DNA of 20,734 bases from a virus. The notes under the pieces are model-generated. The model searched no databases. It was not told where the DNA came from and saw only the letters and a list, made by a program, of their open reading frames with translations. The stretch spans positions 1-20,734 of IMG/VR virus record IMGVR_UViG_3300008448_000827; one strand, given 5' to 3'. The position numbers were made by a program, and so were the translations under genes. Of the stretch, positions 5,788 through 17,444 are shown piece by piece (the first letter of the stretch is position 1; every line of letters begins with the position of its first letter).

Positions 5788-6801
5788 TTATACTCGTACT
5801 TTAGTTATTTCGCTAAGCTGTGCTTTCATTTTAACAACCGTACCTGATTTGGTTTGGTCATTTAAGAAAACATTAGCATCTTCGTCACCTGCACCAATTA
5901 GTTCATCACCGAAGAAAATTGATTTTCCTTGTACAGTGACAATACCTGATTGCTTTAATCTGAACAATAAAGACTTAGTCTCTAAATTCCTATCGTTATA
6001 CAAAGCAATAAATTCAGTTGACTTAGCATCTTTTAATTGGTCTAATCTCTTACACTTGGTAATGTAATCTGCTGTATAGAACAATTCGTTTGGTTCTTTT
6101 AGTAAGTCTAACAACCAATCTATCTTAGAGTGGTCTTTCTCACTAGAACTTGAAATCAAGTCAGTGTAAGCCTTAGTAGCTTCCAACTTAGTTTTAAATG
6201 CCGCATCTTCAATACGTTTCTCTACAGAAAGGTCATTCATGATGAAGTCAAATAAGTCAGATGATGCTTTTTGGTCTTCTAAGAAAGCTACTCTTGAACT
6301 TTGTCTTGCAAAATTAGCTTTAATATAATCATGCAAATTTACAGGTATTTCAATAGTAACTAACTCGTTATCTACTTTTACTTCTTCTAACTTATAAGAA
6401 GCGTTAAGACGTAAACCATCTACTCTTGGAATACTGATTGTGTAATCTGCCCAAAATGTAGTCATAGCTTCATCATAACCAAAGTCTTTAGGGTTCTTAT
6501 TAATTAGCTTAGAAGCAAAATACCTTTCTTGGTCTGTTGACAATCCTCTTATAATAGCACCAGTAGAGTTTACAAATTCACTACTTATTGAACCTGCTGT
6601 AGTAGACTCTGCTCTTAGTTTAGCAGGTAACGGATGATAACCTCCTTTACGTTCATTGGCTACTAAATGATACTTTTGCTCAATTATTTTTGGTTGAGCT
6701 ACTTCTTTTGTTGCTGTAAAAGCTACATTGTTCGGTGCGGCTAGTGTTCCTCCTCCTGCTGTACTTGCGCCTTTAGCAGGTACTGTTGTTTTGTTTTCCA
6801 T
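5788..6801 (-). CDS. Virion-region protein of unknown function, possibly head-associated
   Basis: The 337 residues begin with a low-complexity Ala/Gly/Thr tail (residues 1-38). A mainly helical body follows, with charged segments around 185-275, and then a short beta-rich end. No enzyme motif, signal or membrane segment is visible. It lies between the major capsid protein and the candidate major tail protein, separated from the capsid gene by a tRNA and a hairpin. A head-associated or internal virion protein is plausible. The ATG at 6801 follows an AT-rich leader without Shine-Dalgarno. Confidence 0.6.
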   Translation of the reverse strand: MENKTTVPAKGASTAGGGTLAAPNNVAFTATKEVAQPKIIEQKYHLVANERKGGYHPLPAKLRAESTTAGSISSEFVNSTGAIIRGLSTDQERYFASKLINKNPKDFGYDEAMTTFWADYTISIPRVDGLRLNASYKLEEVKVDNELVTIEIPVNLHDYIKANFARQSSRVAFLEDQKASSDLFDFIMNDLSVEKRIEDAAFKTKLEATKAYTDLISSSSEKDHSKIDWLLDLLKEPNELFYTADYITKCKRLDQLKDAKSTEFIALYNDRNLETKSLLFRLKQSGIVTVQGKSIFFGDELIGAGDEDANVFLNDQTKSGTVVKMKAQLSEITKVRV

Positions 6802-6843
6802 TTATTTATTAAATTAAAGTTTGTAATGTTAAATGTTACTTAG

Positions 6844-6915
6844 TTGCGAGAGATGGATTCGAACCACCGACCTTTAGATTATGAGTCTAACGAGCTACCC
6901 CTGCTCTATCTCGCG
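6844..6915 (-). tRNA. tRNA-Met (CAU) with initiator hallmarks
   Basis: The 72-base cloverleaf, 5' end at 6915, folds fully. The acceptor CGCGAGA pairs with TCTCGCA except for the first pair. The D stem is GAGC/GCTC, the anticodon stem TTAGA/TCTAA with loop CTCATAA, and the T stem GGTGG/CCATC with loop TTCGAAT. The anticodon CAU lies at 6883-6881. Two features mark bacterial initiator tRNA: the unpaired C1-A72 at the end of the acceptor stem, and A11-U24 in the D stem. Most of the D-arm and anticodon-loop sequence also matches bacterial tRNA-fMet. The usual three G-C pairs at 29-31/39-41 are absent (A-U, G-C, A-U instead). CCA is not encoded: the sequence after discriminator A is CTA. Confidence 0.9.
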
Positions 6916-6920
6916 ATTTA

Positions 6921-6953
6921 ACCGCACTCTTAGTTTTAGCTAAGAAGTGCGGT
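6921..6953 (-). terminator. Strong hairpin between capsid gene and tRNA
   Basis: Thirteen base pairs with one bulged A (arms 6921-6933 and 6940-6953, loop 6934-6939) form just after the capsid stop codon at 6969-6967 and only 5 bases before the tRNA 5' end. In the minus direction the hairpin is followed by TTAAAT rather than a T-run, so it is not a textbook intrinsic terminator. It could weaken read-through, stabilise the 3' end of the capsid mRNA, or mark a processing site that frees the tRNA. Confidence 0.6.
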
Positions 6954-6966
6954 TGTAATTAATCAA

Positions 6967-8481
6967 TTATTGTCCTAGAGTACACAATAATTTATAGCAT
7001 GAGGTTGGACGTTTAATTTGGATACCACCTGTTCTTACGTTCTCAATACTAGTCTCGTCTCTATCTGTTGAACGGTAAACTGATTCAGGATAACCTAGTG
7101 GAGTATGAACACCAGCAACAACGAAGTTGATGTTTTCACGTCCTTCTTCAACTATGTATTGAAGATTAGATTCGCCTTGGTAAACAGTTTGGTCTACAAA
7201 GTAGAAGTGGTGAGAAGTAATAGGTAGTCCTGTTAATGGATGTCTTGGAGCTGATTGAGCAATAAGACCTCTATCAAACATTGGATGGTAGTGAACAGTT
7301 AACATTTGTCCATCTACGTGACGGAAGCTTGTGAAGAAGCTACCATAAACCATCTCGTGTGAGTTGCTACCGCTAGAGTACTGCTCACTAGAAATGAATT
7401 GGGTAAATCCTTTCAACTCGTTCTTAATCATTCGGTCAAAATCAGCCATACCACCACGACCTGTGTAGATATGAATATCTGCTAATTCATCTGTAATGTT
7501 AAAAGTGATGTCACGAACCAAGTTGAAGAACTTGTTGTACGATAACAATGAGTATGTATCACTATTACTTGGTGGAATTTGTTGGTCAATACCAGCTCCT
7601 GAAGTAATAGGTACTTGAGTTTCACTATCTACGGTATAGAAATCACCTGTATTTGCTTTACCATATTGTGACCACCAAATATCATTTTCTCTTTGCTCGT
7701 TAAAAGTTAACATTGACATGTATAACTCGTAGTCCATGTATGACTTAAACAGCTTTCCATCAATAGGAATCTGAAACATCATGGTTTTTTTAGCTACGTT
7801 ACCAGCATACTTGTATGAACTACGCATGAGTGAAATCATGTTAGTAGCCATGCTTGGTAACTGTGAACGGCTTTCTACACCTTTAGATTTCTCGAAAGGA
7901 ACTTTAGCCACACCACCTGACCATGCTTGACCAGATGTCATACAGCTAATAGGCATAAACAAGCTGTTTGTACCTGCGAAAATCTTCAATGTGTACTCCC
8001 AACCATCAGCTACTGCAACTGGGTCACTTACAACTTGACATTGTAATTGTGCTGCTTGGATGTGTGGTGGGTAAAGTAATTGTTGACGGTAAAACCAACG
8101 GTCAGCGAACACTACTTTAAAAGTACTACCTGCTAAACCTGGCTTTTGACCTGTGCTGTAGAGGTTTCTTACTACAATAGAAGTCTTTTTAGGAGCACCC
8201 ATCACTGGATACTTGTACTCAAAGTTAGCATTGTCTAACTTAACTCTACTAATAGTTTTAACTTTTTTAGTTTGTGCTTCTAAGTTACCTTCTGTGTAAG
8301 CTAGTACTGGGAAGTTCTTTTTACCATACTCTTTGTCGTTATACAACATGTGAGTAACAATAGGTGATAAGAGAGTAGCATCATTCTGAAGTGCTCTCGA
8401 AAGTTCTGTAATAGAACTGTAGTCTTTATCGCGATATGTATCTTGATAAAGTTTTAATTCGGGTGTTATTTTACCTGCCAT
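6967..8481 (-). CDS. Major capsid protein
   Basis: The 504 residues match the size expected for the major capsid protein of crAss-like and related Bacteroidota phages. The gene follows terminase, portal and the acidic scaffold-like protein directly, the standard place for the shell protein. The sequence is mixed alpha/beta and well balanced. Aromatic-rich segments (DRWFYRQQLLYPPHI, MLTFNEQRENDIWWSQYG) and a His-rich late segment (HYHPMFDRGLIAQSAPRHPL...SHHFYF) are seen. No proteolysis or enzyme motif is seen. An HK97-type fold is expected from context but cannot be seen directly. The start ATG is preceded by an A-rich AAACAAATAAATT instead of Shine-Dalgarno. Confidence 0.75.
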   Translation of the reverse strand: MAGKITPELKLYQDTYRDKDYSSITELSRALQNDATLLSPIVTHMLYNDKEYGKKNFPVLAYTEGNLEAQTKKVKTISRVKLDNANFEYKYPVMGAPKKTSIVVRNLYSTGQKPGLAGSTFKVVFADRWFYRQQLLYPPHIQAAQLQCQVVSDPVAVADGWEYTLKIFAGTNSLFMPISCMTSGQAWSGGVAKVPFEKSKGVESRSQLPSMATNMISLMRSSYKYAGNVAKKTMMFQIPIDGKLFKSYMDYELYMSMLTFNEQRENDIWWSQYGKANTGDFYTVDSETQVPITSGAGIDQQIPPSNSDTYSLLSYNKFFNLVRDITFNITDELADIHIYTGRGGMADFDRMIKNELKGFTQFISSEQYSSGSNSHEMVYGSFFTSFRHVDGQMLTVHYHPMFDRGLIAQSAPRHPLTGLPITSHHFYFVDQTVYQGESNLQYIVEEGRENINFVVAGVHTPLGYPESVYRSTDRDETSIENVRTGGIQIKRPTSCYKLLCTLGQ

Positions 8482-8513
8482 AATTTATTTGTTTTTTGTT
8501 TGTTTATGTATTA

Positions 8514-9566
8514 CTACGTTTTTCTGTTGATTGCCGCTTTTAACTCGTCTAAACTTTTCCATTCTCTATCACCTTTGTCTGGACCTTCTCCTGCTGAAGG
8601 AGTCATTCTAACTCTAGGTGTTCCTCCTGCCGCTGCTTGTCTAGCTACCTTCTCAAGACCTTTTACTTTAAAATCTTTGAACACTATGTAATCAAGGAGT
8701 AACCTTTGTTGTAAACTTAGTTGTTCGTGTTTCTTTGTAAGTTTATCACTATCTAATATAAACTCATTAAATTGCTTTCTTTCAGCTTCAGGTATTACTA
8801 AGTTATCTAAGTTACCTTCTTTAATAATAGTGTTAACTTGACTTATAATTTTGTTATTCTCTTCTTCCTGTGCTGCTATTTCTGCTTTTTCTTGAGCTAT
8901 TCTAGCATCAGCTTGTTGCTTTAGTGCTGTTTTAATTGTTTCAGTTTCTTTAGTTACCTCAGCATCTAACTCATTATCATCCTTTAATGCTTCAACTAGC
9001 AACTTAGCTCTCTTTTCAGAAATACCTTTTTGTACATAAACCTTAGTTAAGAAATCTGATTTACCATCAACATCATCAGCAGCAAACTCTAATTTAAATT
9101 GTTCTGCTTCTTTCTTAGCTTTCCAGCTTTCGATACTTAATCCTTGTTCTTTGTGAGCACGTAAATCTTGTAAGTCAGGGTCTGAATCTAAGAACTCTTT
9201 TCTAGCACTCTCTTTAACTAACTCGTCACGCTTATCATAGAACTTTTTGATACCATCAACACTATCATCATTAATGTCAATATCAGCAAAATCTTCTAAC
9301 TTATAACCATACTGTTTGATTAAATGTGAAATAGGTGTTACTTCATCTTCTTCCTCTTCCTCTTCTTCACTACCTGCTCCGCCTGCTCCACTTCCTTTTG
9401 CAGCTTCTGCTGCTAATCTAGCTGCTTCTGCATCAACGGCTGCTTGAGCCTCTGCTGCTGCCTCTGCCGCTATTTCTTCTGCTGTTTTCTCTGCTGGAAT
9501 ATCTTCCAGTTGGTACTTTGATGCAATACCACTTACTACATCTTCACCTAAGTTTAATTCTGTCAT
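8514..9566 (-). CDS. Acidic head scaffold-like protein
   Basis: The 350-residue protein is highly charged and helical. An Ala/Glu-rich repeat-like helix spans about residues 28-57. A Gly hinge (58-66) and a run of seven Glu plus Asp-Glu (67-75) follow, then Lys/Glu-rich coiled-coil stretches (about 100-300), ending in a short basic tail (ELKAAINRKT). Composition and its place between portal and major capsid protein are those of an internal scaffolding protein, around which the procapsid forms. No protease motif is visible, so a scaffold-protease fusion is not supported. It has its own promoter candidate at 9617-9648. Confidence 0.65.
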   Translation of the reverse strand: MTELNLGEDVVSGIASKYQLEDIPAEKTAEEIAAEAAAEAQAAVDAEAARLAAEAAKGSGAGGAGSEEEEEEEDEVTPISHLIKQYGYKLEDFADIDINDDSVDGIKKFYDKRDELVKESARKEFLDSDPDLQDLRAHKEQGLSIESWKAKKEAEQFKLEFAADDVDGKSDFLTKVYVQKGISEKRAKLLVEALKDDNELDAEVTKETETIKTALKQQADARIAQEKAEIAAQEEENNKIISQVNTIIKEGNLDNLVIPEAERKQFNEFILDSDKLTKKHEQLSLQQRLLLDYIVFKDFKVKGLEKVARQAAAGGTPRVRMTPSAGEGPDKGDREWKSLDELKAAINRKT

Positions 9567-9616
9567 GTTTGTTTGTTTTATTTAATGTGTGTGAAATTTT
9601 AATCAATAAAACAGTA

Positions 9617-9648
9617 CAAAGATAATAATAATTACCTACTTCTACTAA
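9617..9648 (-). promoter_or_regulatory. Promoter candidate ahead of scaffold and capsid genes
   Basis: TATCTTTG (9624-9617) matches the Bacteroidota -7 consensus TAnnTTTG. The TTAG 20 bases upstream (9648-9645) is one mismatch from the -33 TTTG. It lies in the 115-base gap between portal and scaffold genes, the longest gap inside the head operon, and would give a leader of roughly 45 bases. This would allow extra transcription of the most abundant head proteins. Confidence 0.5.
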
Positions 9649-9681
9649 TCCTTAAAAAAGCGGAAATAGGCAATTATCTAC

Positions 9682-12000
9682 TTATTTCTTGGTTCCTGTT
9701 GGTCTACTAGCTTTATATCTTTCAACTGATAGCTTTTCTTTAGCTATCTTTTCGTCACTTAGTCTTTTAGCTCTTTGTTCTGCAAGTTTCTCTCTTTCTA
9801 GTTGTATCTTACCAAACGCTTCTTCTCTCTTGGCTTGTAGTTTAGCTATTTCTGTAACATCTGGTACTCCGTTATTATTAACATCTGCTCCTAATAAATC
9901 AGCTTCAAGTTCCATTAACTTCAAGTCTTTAGCAGATTCTATATTAGCATCAACTTCATACCTCTTTAATTCTCTATCGGCAGCTTTTTCAGCTAACTCT
10001 GCTTGCTTAAATTCTTGCTCAGCAGCAGCTTGTTGTTGATTACGTTCTACTAGTTTACTTTCTAATTCATCCAAATCTTCTATAAGTTCAGCTATATTAA
10101 CAGCCTGTACAATTCTAGGCAACATTCCAATCTGTTCTGTTTGTTGTGCTATATTACCTAACTGCCCTTTCATTAACTCTAAATCTCTTTGTGTTTTAGC
10201 ACTATTCTCAGCTACTACACCGTATTCAATCCAAGGGTAAACACTTGGGTCTATTTCATATTCTACTTCTTTTTGCTTACTCGACAAGTAAACACCCTTC
10301 TTACCGTCTTTCCATGCTATCTGTGTTAACGGTAACAAGCTATTAAGGTCTGTTAAAATAGTTTCTTCGTGTTGTCTAAATAGTTCTTCTGTAGCTGTAC
10401 TACTTCTATAAAGAGCTTCTTCTGTTACAGCCTTACCATCACTAGCCATAGTAGCTCCTTTACGTTGTCTATTAAATCCAATGGCTTCGTCCCAATCTTC
10501 TTTAATAGCACGTAATATATCATATAGCTCTTTTATGTAAGAAGCCAACGACATGTCTAATACTTTTATATATTGTAAAGCTTGTAGTGCTTGAGGATTG
10601 GTTTCATCAATAAATAAATAACCATGTGCATCAGCATAATACATCACAGTAAATTCATCCCAACCTTCTTTTTGTGGTATAATACCAAGTGGAAAAGTAG
10701 TAATCTTATCCTTATTTTTGTTCATTACCTTTTCAAGATGGTAATGCGCGATATTGTATTTTATCTGATATACAATAGCTTTTTCACCTATACTTTGAGG
10801 TATTACATAGTTATTACCATATATTCTACCATTGTATTCATTCTTACAACGGCTTGGATTTTCCCATGTACCTTTTTGGTGAGCAAGAGGTTGTACCCCT
10901 ATAATATGTTTATTATTAATTCTATAACCTTCCCACTTCTGTGTAACCCACCTTCTCTCTACTTCTTCACCAGGAAGAGGTTCATAGTCTTCGTCATATT
11001 GTTCTATATACTCATTACCAAAAGCATCTATACCTTTTACCCTAATCATTTCAGCCATAGAACTCCATTGTACGTGTTCTACTATTAATCCTTCTATTTG
11101 ATTAGCGTAAGGAGCACCAACACCAGCCATACCTCTAAGCATGTCTGTGGTTAGTCCTGTACTAATAGAATTATAACCAATAATACCTAACTGAGTTTCT
11201 AACTCATCTATAATATCATCTGTAAACTCATCCATTCCTGAGAACTTATCTATAATCTCATTCATAGTCATTGTTACAGTACGCTTAACTGCTTCTGCAT
11301 CCTGTATAAAATCAATATTAGGACTATGAGAGAAAGACATCTCCAAAGGACTTACTGTAAAGTAATCTATATCATCATTATGTATAGTTTGATATGTAAA
11401 GAATCTACCTAACACTATAAAATCATACAGGGTTTTACGTCTAATTAAATCAATGCGCTTATCTGTCATGATAACATTAAGTGCATGTTGACCCATTTTA
11501 GATAACTCGTTCTGTAAATTAGATACAGTTTTGTTAATTAAGTCTTGAGACATTGGTGTTTGAGCAATCTGCTCAGGCAACATACCTTCTTGAACTAAAC
11601 CATTAACAAAATCCTGCTTTAATTTCTTTACTGTAAGCTCGTACCCTACTTGGTCTTTTCTATCCTGCATAGTACTATTAAGTGCTATTACCATAGGATT
11701 GAAATACCTTTGTGCAAGTTCACCCATCAGTCTTTGAATGTTGGTACTAATAATATCAACATTACGTATCTTAGCTGGATAACCTTTTAATTCAGGTCTA
11801 TCCATATTAAGTGGGTTTGTTACATAAGTATATACACTTTCATCTAGTTTACCTGCTACAGCACTATATAGTACAATAGCATCACTATTACTAACAGGGA
11901 AAATGTTACACCTATTAGCCCAATATCTTACGTTAGATTCTTTCCAATCTTTATCTTTTTGCGAAAACGGCAGTTTTTGTTTTGGTCTTGATACATTCAT
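9682..12000 (-). CDS. Portal protein
   Basis: The 772 residues are typical for the portals of crAss-like and related phages. The gene starts one base after the terminase stop. The N-terminal part is a mixed domain (about 1-330, beginning with PFSQKDKDWKESNVRYWANR). A wing/stem-type region with the motif ASYIKELYDILRAIKEDWDEAIGFNRQRKG follows, then beta elements near 560-580. The C-terminus from about 620 is a long charged helical coil. The dodecameric ring at one capsid vertex would take DNA in from the terminase. Within the coil at residues 706-717 is a complete EF-hand-type loop DVNNNGVPDVTE. Confidence 0.8.
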   Translation of the reverse strand: MNVSRPKQKLPFSQKDKDWKESNVRYWANRCNIFPVSNSDAIVLYSAVAGKLDESVYTYVTNPLNMDRPELKGYPAKIRNVDIISTNIQRLMGELAQRYFNPMVIALNSTMQDRKDQVGYELTVKKLKQDFVNGLVQEGMLPEQIAQTPMSQDLINKTVSNLQNELSKMGQHALNVIMTDKRIDLIRRKTLYDFIVLGRFFTYQTIHNDDIDYFTVSPLEMSFSHSPNIDFIQDAEAVKRTVTMTMNEIIDKFSGMDEFTDDIIDELETQLGIIGYNSISTGLTTDMLRGMAGVGAPYANQIEGLIVEHVQWSSMAEMIRVKGIDAFGNEYIEQYDEDYEPLPGEEVERRWVTQKWEGYRINNKHIIGVQPLAHQKGTWENPSRCKNEYNGRIYGNNYVIPQSIGEKAIVYQIKYNIAHYHLEKVMNKNKDKITTFPLGIIPQKEGWDEFTVMYYADAHGYLFIDETNPQALQALQYIKVLDMSLASYIKELYDILRAIKEDWDEAIGFNRQRKGATMASDGKAVTEEALYRSSTATEELFRQHEETILTDLNSLLPLTQIAWKDGKKGVYLSSKQKEVEYEIDPSVYPWIEYGVVAENSAKTQRDLELMKGQLGNIAQQTEQIGMLPRIVQAVNIAELIEDLDELESKLVERNQQQAAAEQEFKQAELAEKAADRELKRYEVDANIESAKDLKLMELEADLLGADVNNNGVPDVTEIAKLQAKREEAFGKIQLEREKLAEQRAKRLSDEKIAKEKLSVERYKASRPTGTKK

Positions 12001-12001
12001 C

Positions 12002-14164
12002 TTATTTAAAGCATTGATGGTTACTTAATGCAAATCTCTTTTTTTCTTTTATAGCTTCTCTTCTTTGATAAACTAACTCTCTACTATGATACCTTTGTAT
12101 CCTAAAAGCAGCTATCCTATCAAAGTTACCTTGTTCTGGGTTATAAGACTCTAACTCTTTTAAAAGCCCTACGTCATAAACAGTATGTAGATTTAATTGT
12201 ACTCTACCTTCACCATCTATAGTACGTCTTGTCTCTAACCACTCCTTTATATATTCATCACCTGTGTACTTACGGTCATTTAATTTACCAGCACCTATGT
12301 GCATACCATACTTACGTTTTACACCACCATTAGATGTCTTAAGTTTCTCATCATAAGCTAACTCAAACTCTGATTCTAGCATGTGTAATACCTTAAACCT
12401 TTTGGCATAATCCATTAAGGTCATATCATCATTTTCAAATCCTATTTTTGCGTTATAGTATTCAGCCATTTCAAATACTATCTTACAAAACTCGTCTTTA
12501 GTTTTAGGTCTTCCTACAAATTGACATACAAGCCTATCGTCAAGATTAGGTGCTGATAGATTAGTTGGTCTTAAATATACGTAAGCTGCTCCAACAGATT
12601 CACCTGTTGAGGTATCAAATCGGTAACTATCTACGTCTACTATATATAAATCTCTTTTAGGTCTTCCTGTTTCTGGGTCTTTTATAGGAGGGTACCACAT
12701 AGCTACAGTACTATCGTTATCTGCTCCTTTCTTAATAGGATAATCCCACAGAGTACTTTTACTATTATCTACTTCAAACTTTAACTTACCTTCTGCTGTG
12801 CGTACAAACCTACCTGACGTGCTTAAAGCTTTGTGCAATTCATTACGTTCTACATAAGTACGCCATTCTCTAATAGCTACAGTATCAAATATATTATTAC
12901 TACTAATTGCAAAAGCATCTGCTGGACAGAATGGATGTTCCATCTTTCTGTTCATCAAACCCTTCGCATCACCCTTCTCTATAAATTCTACTCTTTGGTA
13001 TTCCTCTTCATACTCCCTAGCTAAGTCTATTAATGACTCGCCTTTAGGCGTCATATAACCAACTACACACCAGTAATCAGGTATAAAGAAACCACAATAA
13101 GTACCTTTAGCTCCTTCATCATATACGTTCTCAAATTCAAGACAGTTGTATTTCTGACAATTAAAGAATATTTCTTTAAAGCCTTCCCAATCTGTATTAT
13201 CACCACCACCTGTACCAAACCAAATAATCATACCACTCTTGTATGTACCATCTGATAATGTATCCATAGTAGCATCTGTAAAGTCTAACAAGTTAGGTGC
13301 TTTACCACTCTCTTCTACATATATTTCATCAGCATCTTTACCCCTAGCAGCAGCTTTATTTGCTCTAAAACTAGTACCAATTATCTGACTTAAGTAACCT
13401 TGTTCTACTTCACTACCACCTTCTACTTTTTCTTTCCAACCTGATTTAATATGGTCAGGTTCGTTCTTTAATCTTCTTCTACCAAACTTAGTATGCTTAT
13501 CTGTAAAGTCTAATGTTTCTTTACACTTACTAAGAATAGCATCTTCTGTAAGATAAGCCATGTCATACGCAGTATATAATGTAGTAGACTTAGGATAAAG
13601 ATTGTACCTATAACAACCGCTGTAGCCAAGTTTATAACTAGCCCCAAAACGTCTTTTCTTAGCCACACATAAATTCTTCCCACTACCATAAACTGTATAT
13701 TTAACACCTTCATCTTCTATTTCTTGAGCACGTATTCTTACTTCATCGGGAAAACGTAGTGCTTTAAATTGTTCTAATGTTATACCACCACGTTTTAAAA
13801 TATCTGGGTGGTCACTAGCACCATACCTAGCTATCTTCTTAACCCAATAGAATATATAATCACCATCCCAAAAGTCAGGAAAGGTAAACTCTTTTGTAAT
13901 AGCTACATTAAACAACGCTTTCTTTAACTTATGCTTATCTTCATCTGCTGTCAATTTAATACGACAAAAGTTCAAATAACCATAATGCTCCCCTGTAATA
14001 GTTACACCATCTACAGTATAACCATCTACAAGACGTTTACGTTGTTCTAACCACCAATCTCGTTCAGTAGGGTATCTTTTATGTTTCTTAAAATATGCCC
14101 CTGCTTCACAGAACTTGCTTGTATCTACGTCACTAAAATCTATAAGTTTCCTACCTAACGACAT
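12002..14164 (-). CDS. terL: Terminase large subunit (packaging ATPase/nuclease)
   Basis: The 720-residue motor cuts and pumps phage DNA. Motifs in order: a deviant Walker A KKRRFGAS (169-176), Walker B EIYVEE (280-285) with the likely catalytic Glu at 284 or 285, and a coupling motif FGTGG near 316-320. The C-terminal RNase H-type nuclease domain shows DLYIVDVDS (D510, D512), an acidic IGFENDD (E577-D580) and a late acidic site NFDRIAAFR (D682). The P-loop lacks the usual Lys before Ser and instead starts with Lys, as in lambda terminase. Length and order match Bacteroidota phage terminases. The start ATG at 14164 is two bases after the upstream stop. Confidence 0.9.
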   Translation of the reverse strand: MSLGRKLIDFSDVDTSKFCEAGAYFKKHKRYPTERDWWLEQRKRLVDGYTVDGVTITGEHYGYLNFCRIKLTADEDKHKLKKALFNVAITKEFTFPDFWDGDYIFYWVKKIARYGASDHPDILKRGGITLEQFKALRFPDEVRIRAQEIEDEGVKYTVYGSGKNLCVAKKRRFGASYKLGYSGCYRYNLYPKSTTLYTAYDMAYLTEDAILSKCKETLDFTDKHTKFGRRRLKNEPDHIKSGWKEKVEGGSEVEQGYLSQIIGTSFRANKAAARGKDADEIYVEESGKAPNLLDFTDATMDTLSDGTYKSGMIIWFGTGGGDNTDWEGFKEIFFNCQKYNCLEFENVYDEGAKGTYCGFFIPDYWCVVGYMTPKGESLIDLAREYEEEYQRVEFIEKGDAKGLMNRKMEHPFCPADAFAISSNNIFDTVAIREWRTYVERNELHKALSTSGRFVRTAEGKLKFEVDNSKSTLWDYPIKKGADNDSTVAMWYPPIKDPETGRPKRDLYIVDVDSYRFDTSTGESVGAAYVYLRPTNLSAPNLDDRLVCQFVGRPKTKDEFCKIVFEMAEYYNAKIGFENDDMTLMDYAKRFKVLHMLESEFELAYDEKLKTSNGGVKRKYGMHIGAGKLNDRKYTGDEYIKEWLETRRTIDGEGRVQLNLHTVYDVGLLKELESYNPEQGNFDRIAAFRIQRYHSRELVYQRREAIKEKKRFALSNHQCFK

Positions 14165-17371: not shown

Positions 17372-17444
17372 TGGAAGCAGCAGGACTCGAACCTGCATTG
17401 CTGGTTCTTCAAACCAGTGCATTGACCATCTTTGCTATACTTCC
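17372..17444 (-). tRNA. tRNA-Phe (GAA)
   Basis: The 73-base cloverleaf has its 5' end at 17444. Acceptor GGAAGTA pairs with TGCTTCC (one G-T pair). The D stem is GCA/TGC, with an 11-base loop. Anticodon stem CTGGT/ACCAG holds loop TTGAAGA, anticodon GAA at 17410-17408. The T stem GCAGG/CCTGC has loop TTCGAGT, and the discriminator is A. CCA is not encoded: the next bases are CTA, the same three as after the other tRNA. It lies between two protein genes of the same operon and would be cut from a long transcript. Confidence 0.9.

Follow-up and report, generated by a model that had tools for sequence, protein, structure and literature searches.

The window analysed here is the whole of a 20.7 kb virus record (IMG/VR IMGVR_UViG_3300008448_000827, 20,734 nucleotides, 34% GC), and the element in question is a gene for an initiator-type tRNA with a CAU anticodon, which lies on the minus strand at 6844-6915 and was characterized using ARAGORN, Rfam, custom covariance models and alignment with relatives. 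ARAGORN places a tRNA-Met(CAU) at 6843-6915 of the minus strand; the Rfam tRNA model scores 6844-6915 at 65.2 bits, where the cutoff is 29, and marks the 1-72 pair as non-standard. The intact sequence is CGCGAGATAGAGCAGGGGTAGCTCGTTAGACTCATAATCTAAAGGTCGGTGGTTCGAATCCATCTCTCGCAA. The gene is found 51 nt downstream of the gene for the major capsid protein (MCP); in minus-strand order the capsid gene runs to 6967, the tRNA begins at 6915 and the following gene begins at 6801. The MCP is identified by its PHROG match and the two closest relatives, L003 and L004, share the arrangement, so the initial annotation was right to place a phage tRNA directly after a capsid gene.

Identity marks of the tRNA

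Position 1-72 is an unpaired or weak C1xA72 in the window tRNA, as it is in L003 and L004, and sequence and alignment also locate in it G2-C71, C3-G70 and A11-U24, the pairs that act as formylation determinants (PMC7949028). The CAU anticodon stands within a CUCAUAA loop, the discriminator is A73, the variable loop is AGGUC, and CCA is not encoded. The unpaired C1-A72, the A11-U24 pair and the CTCATAA loop had been described accurately in the initial annotation, which gave no strand (it is the minus strand).

Three G-C pairs in the anticodon stem, at 29-41, 30-40 and 31-39 (“3GC”), are in the standard account a conserved hallmark of initiator tRNA. Two of them are replaced in the window tRNA and the middle one is kept: 29-41 is A-U, 30-40 is G-C and 31-39 is A-U, which is written here as AGA/UCU. 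The earlier statement that the three pairs are missing therefore read each pair correctly but overstated the loss, since G30-C40 remains. Because cellular initiators themselves vary at 29-41, the three pairs are not all strictly defining, and because 30-40 is kept, the name used here is “initiator-type”; judged by its stem, the window tRNA is a variant of this type and not a canonical tRNA-fMet.

The distinction between an initiator and an elongator was evaluated with two covariance models, of which R2 represents cellular initiators from other phyla, without Bacteroidota and without viruses, and R3 represents cellular elongator Met and Ile2 tRNAs from other phyla. The window tRNA scores 83.1 bits with R2 and 65.2 with R3, a margin of 18 bits; the L003 tRNA scores 82.5 and 62.8, and Bacteroidales chromosomal initiators score 83.3-87.2 and 61.6-63.9. 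The E. coli elongator Met, whose sequence is within the R3 training set, scores 53.7 bits with the initiator model and 90.8 with the elongator model. Neither the paired 1-72 nor the Y11-R24 D stem of an elongator is present in the window tRNA, and an elongator tRNA-Met or a lysidine-bearing tRNA-Ile2 is ruled out by the lower R3 score together with C1xA72 and A11-U24. The initiator-type assignment made in the initial annotation is thus borne out, the Met/Ile2 model that might have overturned it having scored lower. Chance resemblance is excluded by the covariance scores and by a homologous tRNA with compensated stem changes at the same place in L003 and L004. On the strength of the model scores and this conservation, 6844-6915 is a maintained phage initiator-type tRNA.

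Four Bacteroidales chromosomal initiators (L150-L153, drawn from records filed as plasmids) provide the closest cellular comparison. They share with the window tRNA C1xA72, G2-C71, C3-G70, A11-U24, the CUCAUAA loop, the AGGUC variable loop and A73; CCA is unencoded in three of the four, as in the phage tRNA, and the Parabacteroides copy has the same short D loop. They differ at 29-31/39-41, where the chromosomal copies have GGG/CCC and the phage has AGA/UCU, so that the idea of a stem which mirrors the host's own initiators is not supported by these four sequences, which are fragments from a few species.

Relatives and genomic setting

Eight relatives were taken from IMG/VR on the basis of the MCP. 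L003 and L004, whose MCP is 96% identical to that of the window, carry the same tRNA in the same place, with 61 and 60 of its 72 bases identical to the window and an anticodon stem of GGA/UCC. Between the window and these two relatives four stem pairs are altered on both sides, while C1xA72, A11-U24 and the other initiator marks are unchanged; when eight phage and host initiators are aligned, two-sided changes are found at 11 of 20 pairs. The search of related phages for the same tRNA beside the capsid gene, which had been proposed as a check, thus finds it in L003 and L004, while the distant relatives, with an MCP identity of 76%, are without it. From its presence in the former and its absence in the latter it follows that a gain (or a loss) of the tRNA took place inside this clade, after which it was maintained. 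At the same site L010 (MCP 84%) has a 79-nt tRNA-like element (6553-6631) which ARAGORN calls His(ATG), with 35 Rfam bits and an odd anticodon arm. L003 and L004 match the window at 96% in the capsid protein and at 56-71% in most neighbouring proteins, with portal and terminase higher, which suggests either capsid gene exchange or strong constraint on the capsid. The tRNA has kept its site in both relatives even though the genes on its tail side have diverged to 56-71% identity, which favours a maintained phage gene.

The genes around the tRNA belong to a late (structural) block. The MCP gene (6967-8481, minus strand) matches PHROG 11589, major head protein, with an E-value of 4.4e-67, and has tblastn matches to crAss-like phages; the gene on the 3' side of the tRNA (5788-6801, minus strand) keeps its syntenic place in every relative whose sequence reaches it (tblastn 45-71% for L003-L006 and L008-L010), and its protein has no PHROG or Pfam match. 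Further along on the minus strand are the portal protein (9682-12000; PHROG 6547, 1.5e-74) and the terminase large subunit, TerL (12002-14164; PHROG 6681, 7.6e-101), and a tRNA-Phe(GAA), reported by ARAGORN and Rfam, lies at 17372-17444. Homologous MCP, portal and TerL, the proteins by which membership in Crassvirales is judged, are all recovered by PHROG matches and tblastn, and the tblastn matches listed to crAss-like and related Bacteroidota phages are mostly at 24-32% identity; on these markers the phage is a distant crAss-like relative (order Crassvirales). When 5.4 kb of the late block is used as a query, the DNA matches to known phages, among the matches listed, sit on the tRNA region.

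Anticodon-stem pairs in viruses and cells

The viral record was surveyed by scanning IMG/VR with patterns that are free at 27-31 and 39-43 and in which the D arm and anticodon loop are fixed. The viral sample is formed by the matches listed, which give 102 distinct cloverleaves; IMG/VR includes some proviruses with host flanks, the contigs are not independent lineages, and the hosts are mostly not identified. In this sample the pair 30-40 is G-C in 101 of 102 tRNAs. The pair 29-41 is A-U in 50, G-C in 33 and U-A in 19, so that 69 depart from G-C, and the pair 31-39 is G-C in 86 and something else in 16, of which 8 are C-G. The exact AGA/UCU stem of the window occurs in 22 further viral contigs, with 18 distinct intact copies, among them that of the contig L118, which encodes a distant crAss-like terminase and has a GroEL-like chaperonin gene (8289-9734) near its initiator-type tRNA.

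Cellular initiators behave differently at 31-39: among 398 genomes from a single phylum, 3 showed a pair other than G-C, and one of these had been preselected; the viral excess over cells has a Fisher p of about 1e-8 if about 298 genomes are taken as scorable. The AGA/UCU stem was not found in cells by an RGA/UCY scan of 84,980 prokaryote species. The six matches of that scan are five GGA/UCC tRNAs and one unpaired tRNA-like array element (L018), and one of the GGA/UCC matches (L019) lies in a prophage, between the tail sheath and major head protein genes. A29-U41 (AGG/CCU), on the other hand, is the usual type in many genomes from the phylum to which G011 belongs and in every initiator listed for that of G013, so that “3GC” is not universal among bacteria at 29-41. 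In G013, G345 and G379 the initiator gene is accompanied by several tandem tRNA-like copies in which an extra G+C-rich stem follows TCATAA (for example CCCGCCGGGGCGGGATC), and which have the look of an initiator-derived array within a single bacterial phylum.

Known phages show the same tendency. A full reading of eight named phages (cr60_1, Aeh1, CcrColossus, DSS3P8, Vibrio 1.081.O, Slicko01, 6E35.1a and Javan59) shows a departure from GGG/CCC in every one. The tRNA-Met of cr60_1 (Buchavirus hominis, NC_055891) is initiator-type, 87% identical to the window tRNA over 67 aligned positions, belongs to a crAss-like phage and adjoins packaging genes; it differs in having U1-A72 and AGG/CCU, and in lying upstream of the terminase gene, after a tRNA-Gln. 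The other seven likewise encode an initiator-type tRNA-Met, which differs from that of the window in being carried mostly in the tRNA arrays of larger phages, where it is annotated as tRNA-Met or not at all, and in its stem variants (AGC/GCU, UGG/CCA, GGU/GCC and AUC/GGU, against AGA/UCU in the window). Two initiator-type tRNAs depart further still: that of Roseobacter phage DSS3P8 (L233, 1500-1572) has AUC/GGU with U30-G40, and that of phiEa21-4 (L230, 1500-1571) has a UUCAUUA anticodon loop.

The survey rejects the notion that loss of 3GC is unique to this phage; judged by the viral sample, the altered stem is a wider viral pattern and not a single oddity. The view that this one defect is unusual needs to be divided accordingly: most of the viral tRNAs depart from GGG/CCC and A29-U41 is a cellular norm in several groups, but a changed 31-39 is rare in cells and AGA/UCU went unfound in the cellular scan. 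A search of the available literature returned no work on natural 3GC variation. As to setting, 56 of the 88 viral loci that span 6 kb or more show no tRNA besides the initiator-type one, a distribution that speaks against plain codon compensation. Several cases stand near packaging or structural genes, after the MCP gene in the window, before TerL in cr60_1, before the small terminase in Javan59 and beside the tail sheath in L019; these form a list of cases and not a statistical test.

A possible role in late translation

We consider it slightly better than an even chance, with a probability of roughly 0.55, that the tRNA works as an initiator in late phage translation, can be formylated and relies on G30-C40. 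A Bacteroidota-type initiator tRNA that sits in the late gene block of a crAss-like phage would be expressed as part of a late transcript, from which it would be excised by host RNase P and 3' nucleases before CCA is added. The predicted product would be charged by MetRS, through CAU and A73, and formylated via C1xA72, G2-C71, C3-G70 and A11-U24, and its use in initiation would enlarge the initiator pool during the bulk synthesis of capsid and tail proteins. Boosted initiation on phage messages, as suggested in the initial annotation, would be a plausible outcome. Altered use of start codons, suggested there as well, is not supported, and start-codon recoding is rejected, since the listed late genes begin with ATG.

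Two observations weigh against a working initiator. The long relatives G003 and G008 are without the tRNA, so that it is dispensable in the wider clade, to which it should be added that the window is itself a 20.7 kb fragment; and E. coli initiators mutated in 3GC do not function in initiation (PMC10486304). Two laboratory tRNAs of E. coli, “3GC mutant” and “M1” (PMC10486304, PMC11497404), resemble the phage tRNA in carrying changes at 29-31/39-41 while the rest of the initiator is intact, but both of them lose G30-C40 (the stem of the 3GC mutant is UA/CG/AU), whereas the phage tRNA keeps it. In the ribosome, 16S rRNA A1339 and G1338 grip the pairs 30-40 and 29-41, and the strongest base-specific contact is made at G30-C40 (PMC11497404). 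The viral series, in which 30-40 is almost constant while 29-41 and 31-39 vary, is in line with this contact between A1339 and G30-C40. G29-C41 and G31-C39 may be dispensable because the main base-specific grip, the A-minor interaction of A1339, is on the pair that is kept, and it is because the laboratory mutant loses exactly the pair which the viral series retains that a working initiator is favoured.

It is unlikely, if well short of negligible, that the phage copy is instead a nuclease-resistant replacement, supplied when the host or a rival prophage disables the initiator with VapC-type anticodon nucleases and not recognised by them because its stem is altered. VapC toxins of several bacteria cut the tRNA-fMet anticodon stem-loop, reading both sequence and structure (PMC7180214), and phage tRNAs elsewhere evade such nucleases by anticodon-loop changes (PMC10264068). 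The variable pairs flank the loop, their changes go to A-U, U-A and C-G and not to A-U alone, and the frequent standing of the initiator-type tRNA as the only one in a viral locus would also suit evasion. The loop in which VapC-type enzymes cut is nevertheless unchanged (CUCAUAA), and for the VapC case that it examines PMC10264068 reports that phages as a rule avoid carrying a tRNA-fMet gene.

A strong hairpin on the minus strand at 6920-6954 (dG -19.6, z -6.4) occupies the interval from the MCP stop codon to the tRNA, ending 4 nt before the tRNA 5' end, and is possibly an mRNA 3' stabilizer or processing element. The hairpin of L003 and L004 (6539-6566 in L003) is of unrelated sequence but has the same position and the same TTAAAT|C junction. 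Such an arrangement would be expected if the hairpin and tRNA formed a punctuation cassette that splits the capsid message from the downstream genes, the RNase P cut leaving a protective 3' hairpin on the former. No such hairpin is seen on reading the sequences of the tRNA-less relatives L005, L006, L008 and L009, promoters around the tRNA and hairpin show no excess over chance, and L010 has a T-run terminator hairpin (6521-6546) beside its own tRNA-like element at the corresponding spot. We regard punctuation as improbable all the same, because initiator identity would not be required of an element that serves for cutting, whereas C1xA72, A11-U24, the CAU loop, A73 and G30-C40 have all been preserved, and because several relatives do without the cassette.

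Host interference is very improbable; on this view a tRNA that resembles an initiator and can be formylated, but is held weakly in the P site, would tie up IF2 or immature 30S subunits and thereby slow initiation in the host. In E. coli the 3GC mutant can be charged and formylated and binds IF2, does not support initiation, and impairs the maturation of ribosomes (PMC10486304); but with G30-C40 kept the grip is probably not lost, and the late block would be poorly timed for host shut-off and would expose phage translation to the same effect. Least probable is a passenger, a host initiator gene acquired by recombination and now drifting, already disfavoured: the long relatives without the tRNA and the G-C to A-U changes would suit it in a 34% GC genome, but the stem changes between the window and L003/L004 are compensated, all initiator marks except 29-41 and 31-39 are kept, and some of the viral changes at 31-39 are to C-G, an outcome that drift towards AT leaves unexplained.

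A broader interpretation is offered tentatively, as one that may well prove wrong: it would be widespread among phages to encode an initiator tRNA of their own, often the sole tRNA near late genes and freed from G29-C41 and G31-C39, possibly for nuclease escape or P-site tuning, and G30-C40 alone would define the grip. The viral copies resemble a natural mutagenesis series, in which 29-41 and 31-39 vary with compensation and 30-40 hardly moves. They raise the question of why a phage should carry just this one tRNA beside its late genes, and they provide a ready-made set of variants for asking which pair initiation needs.
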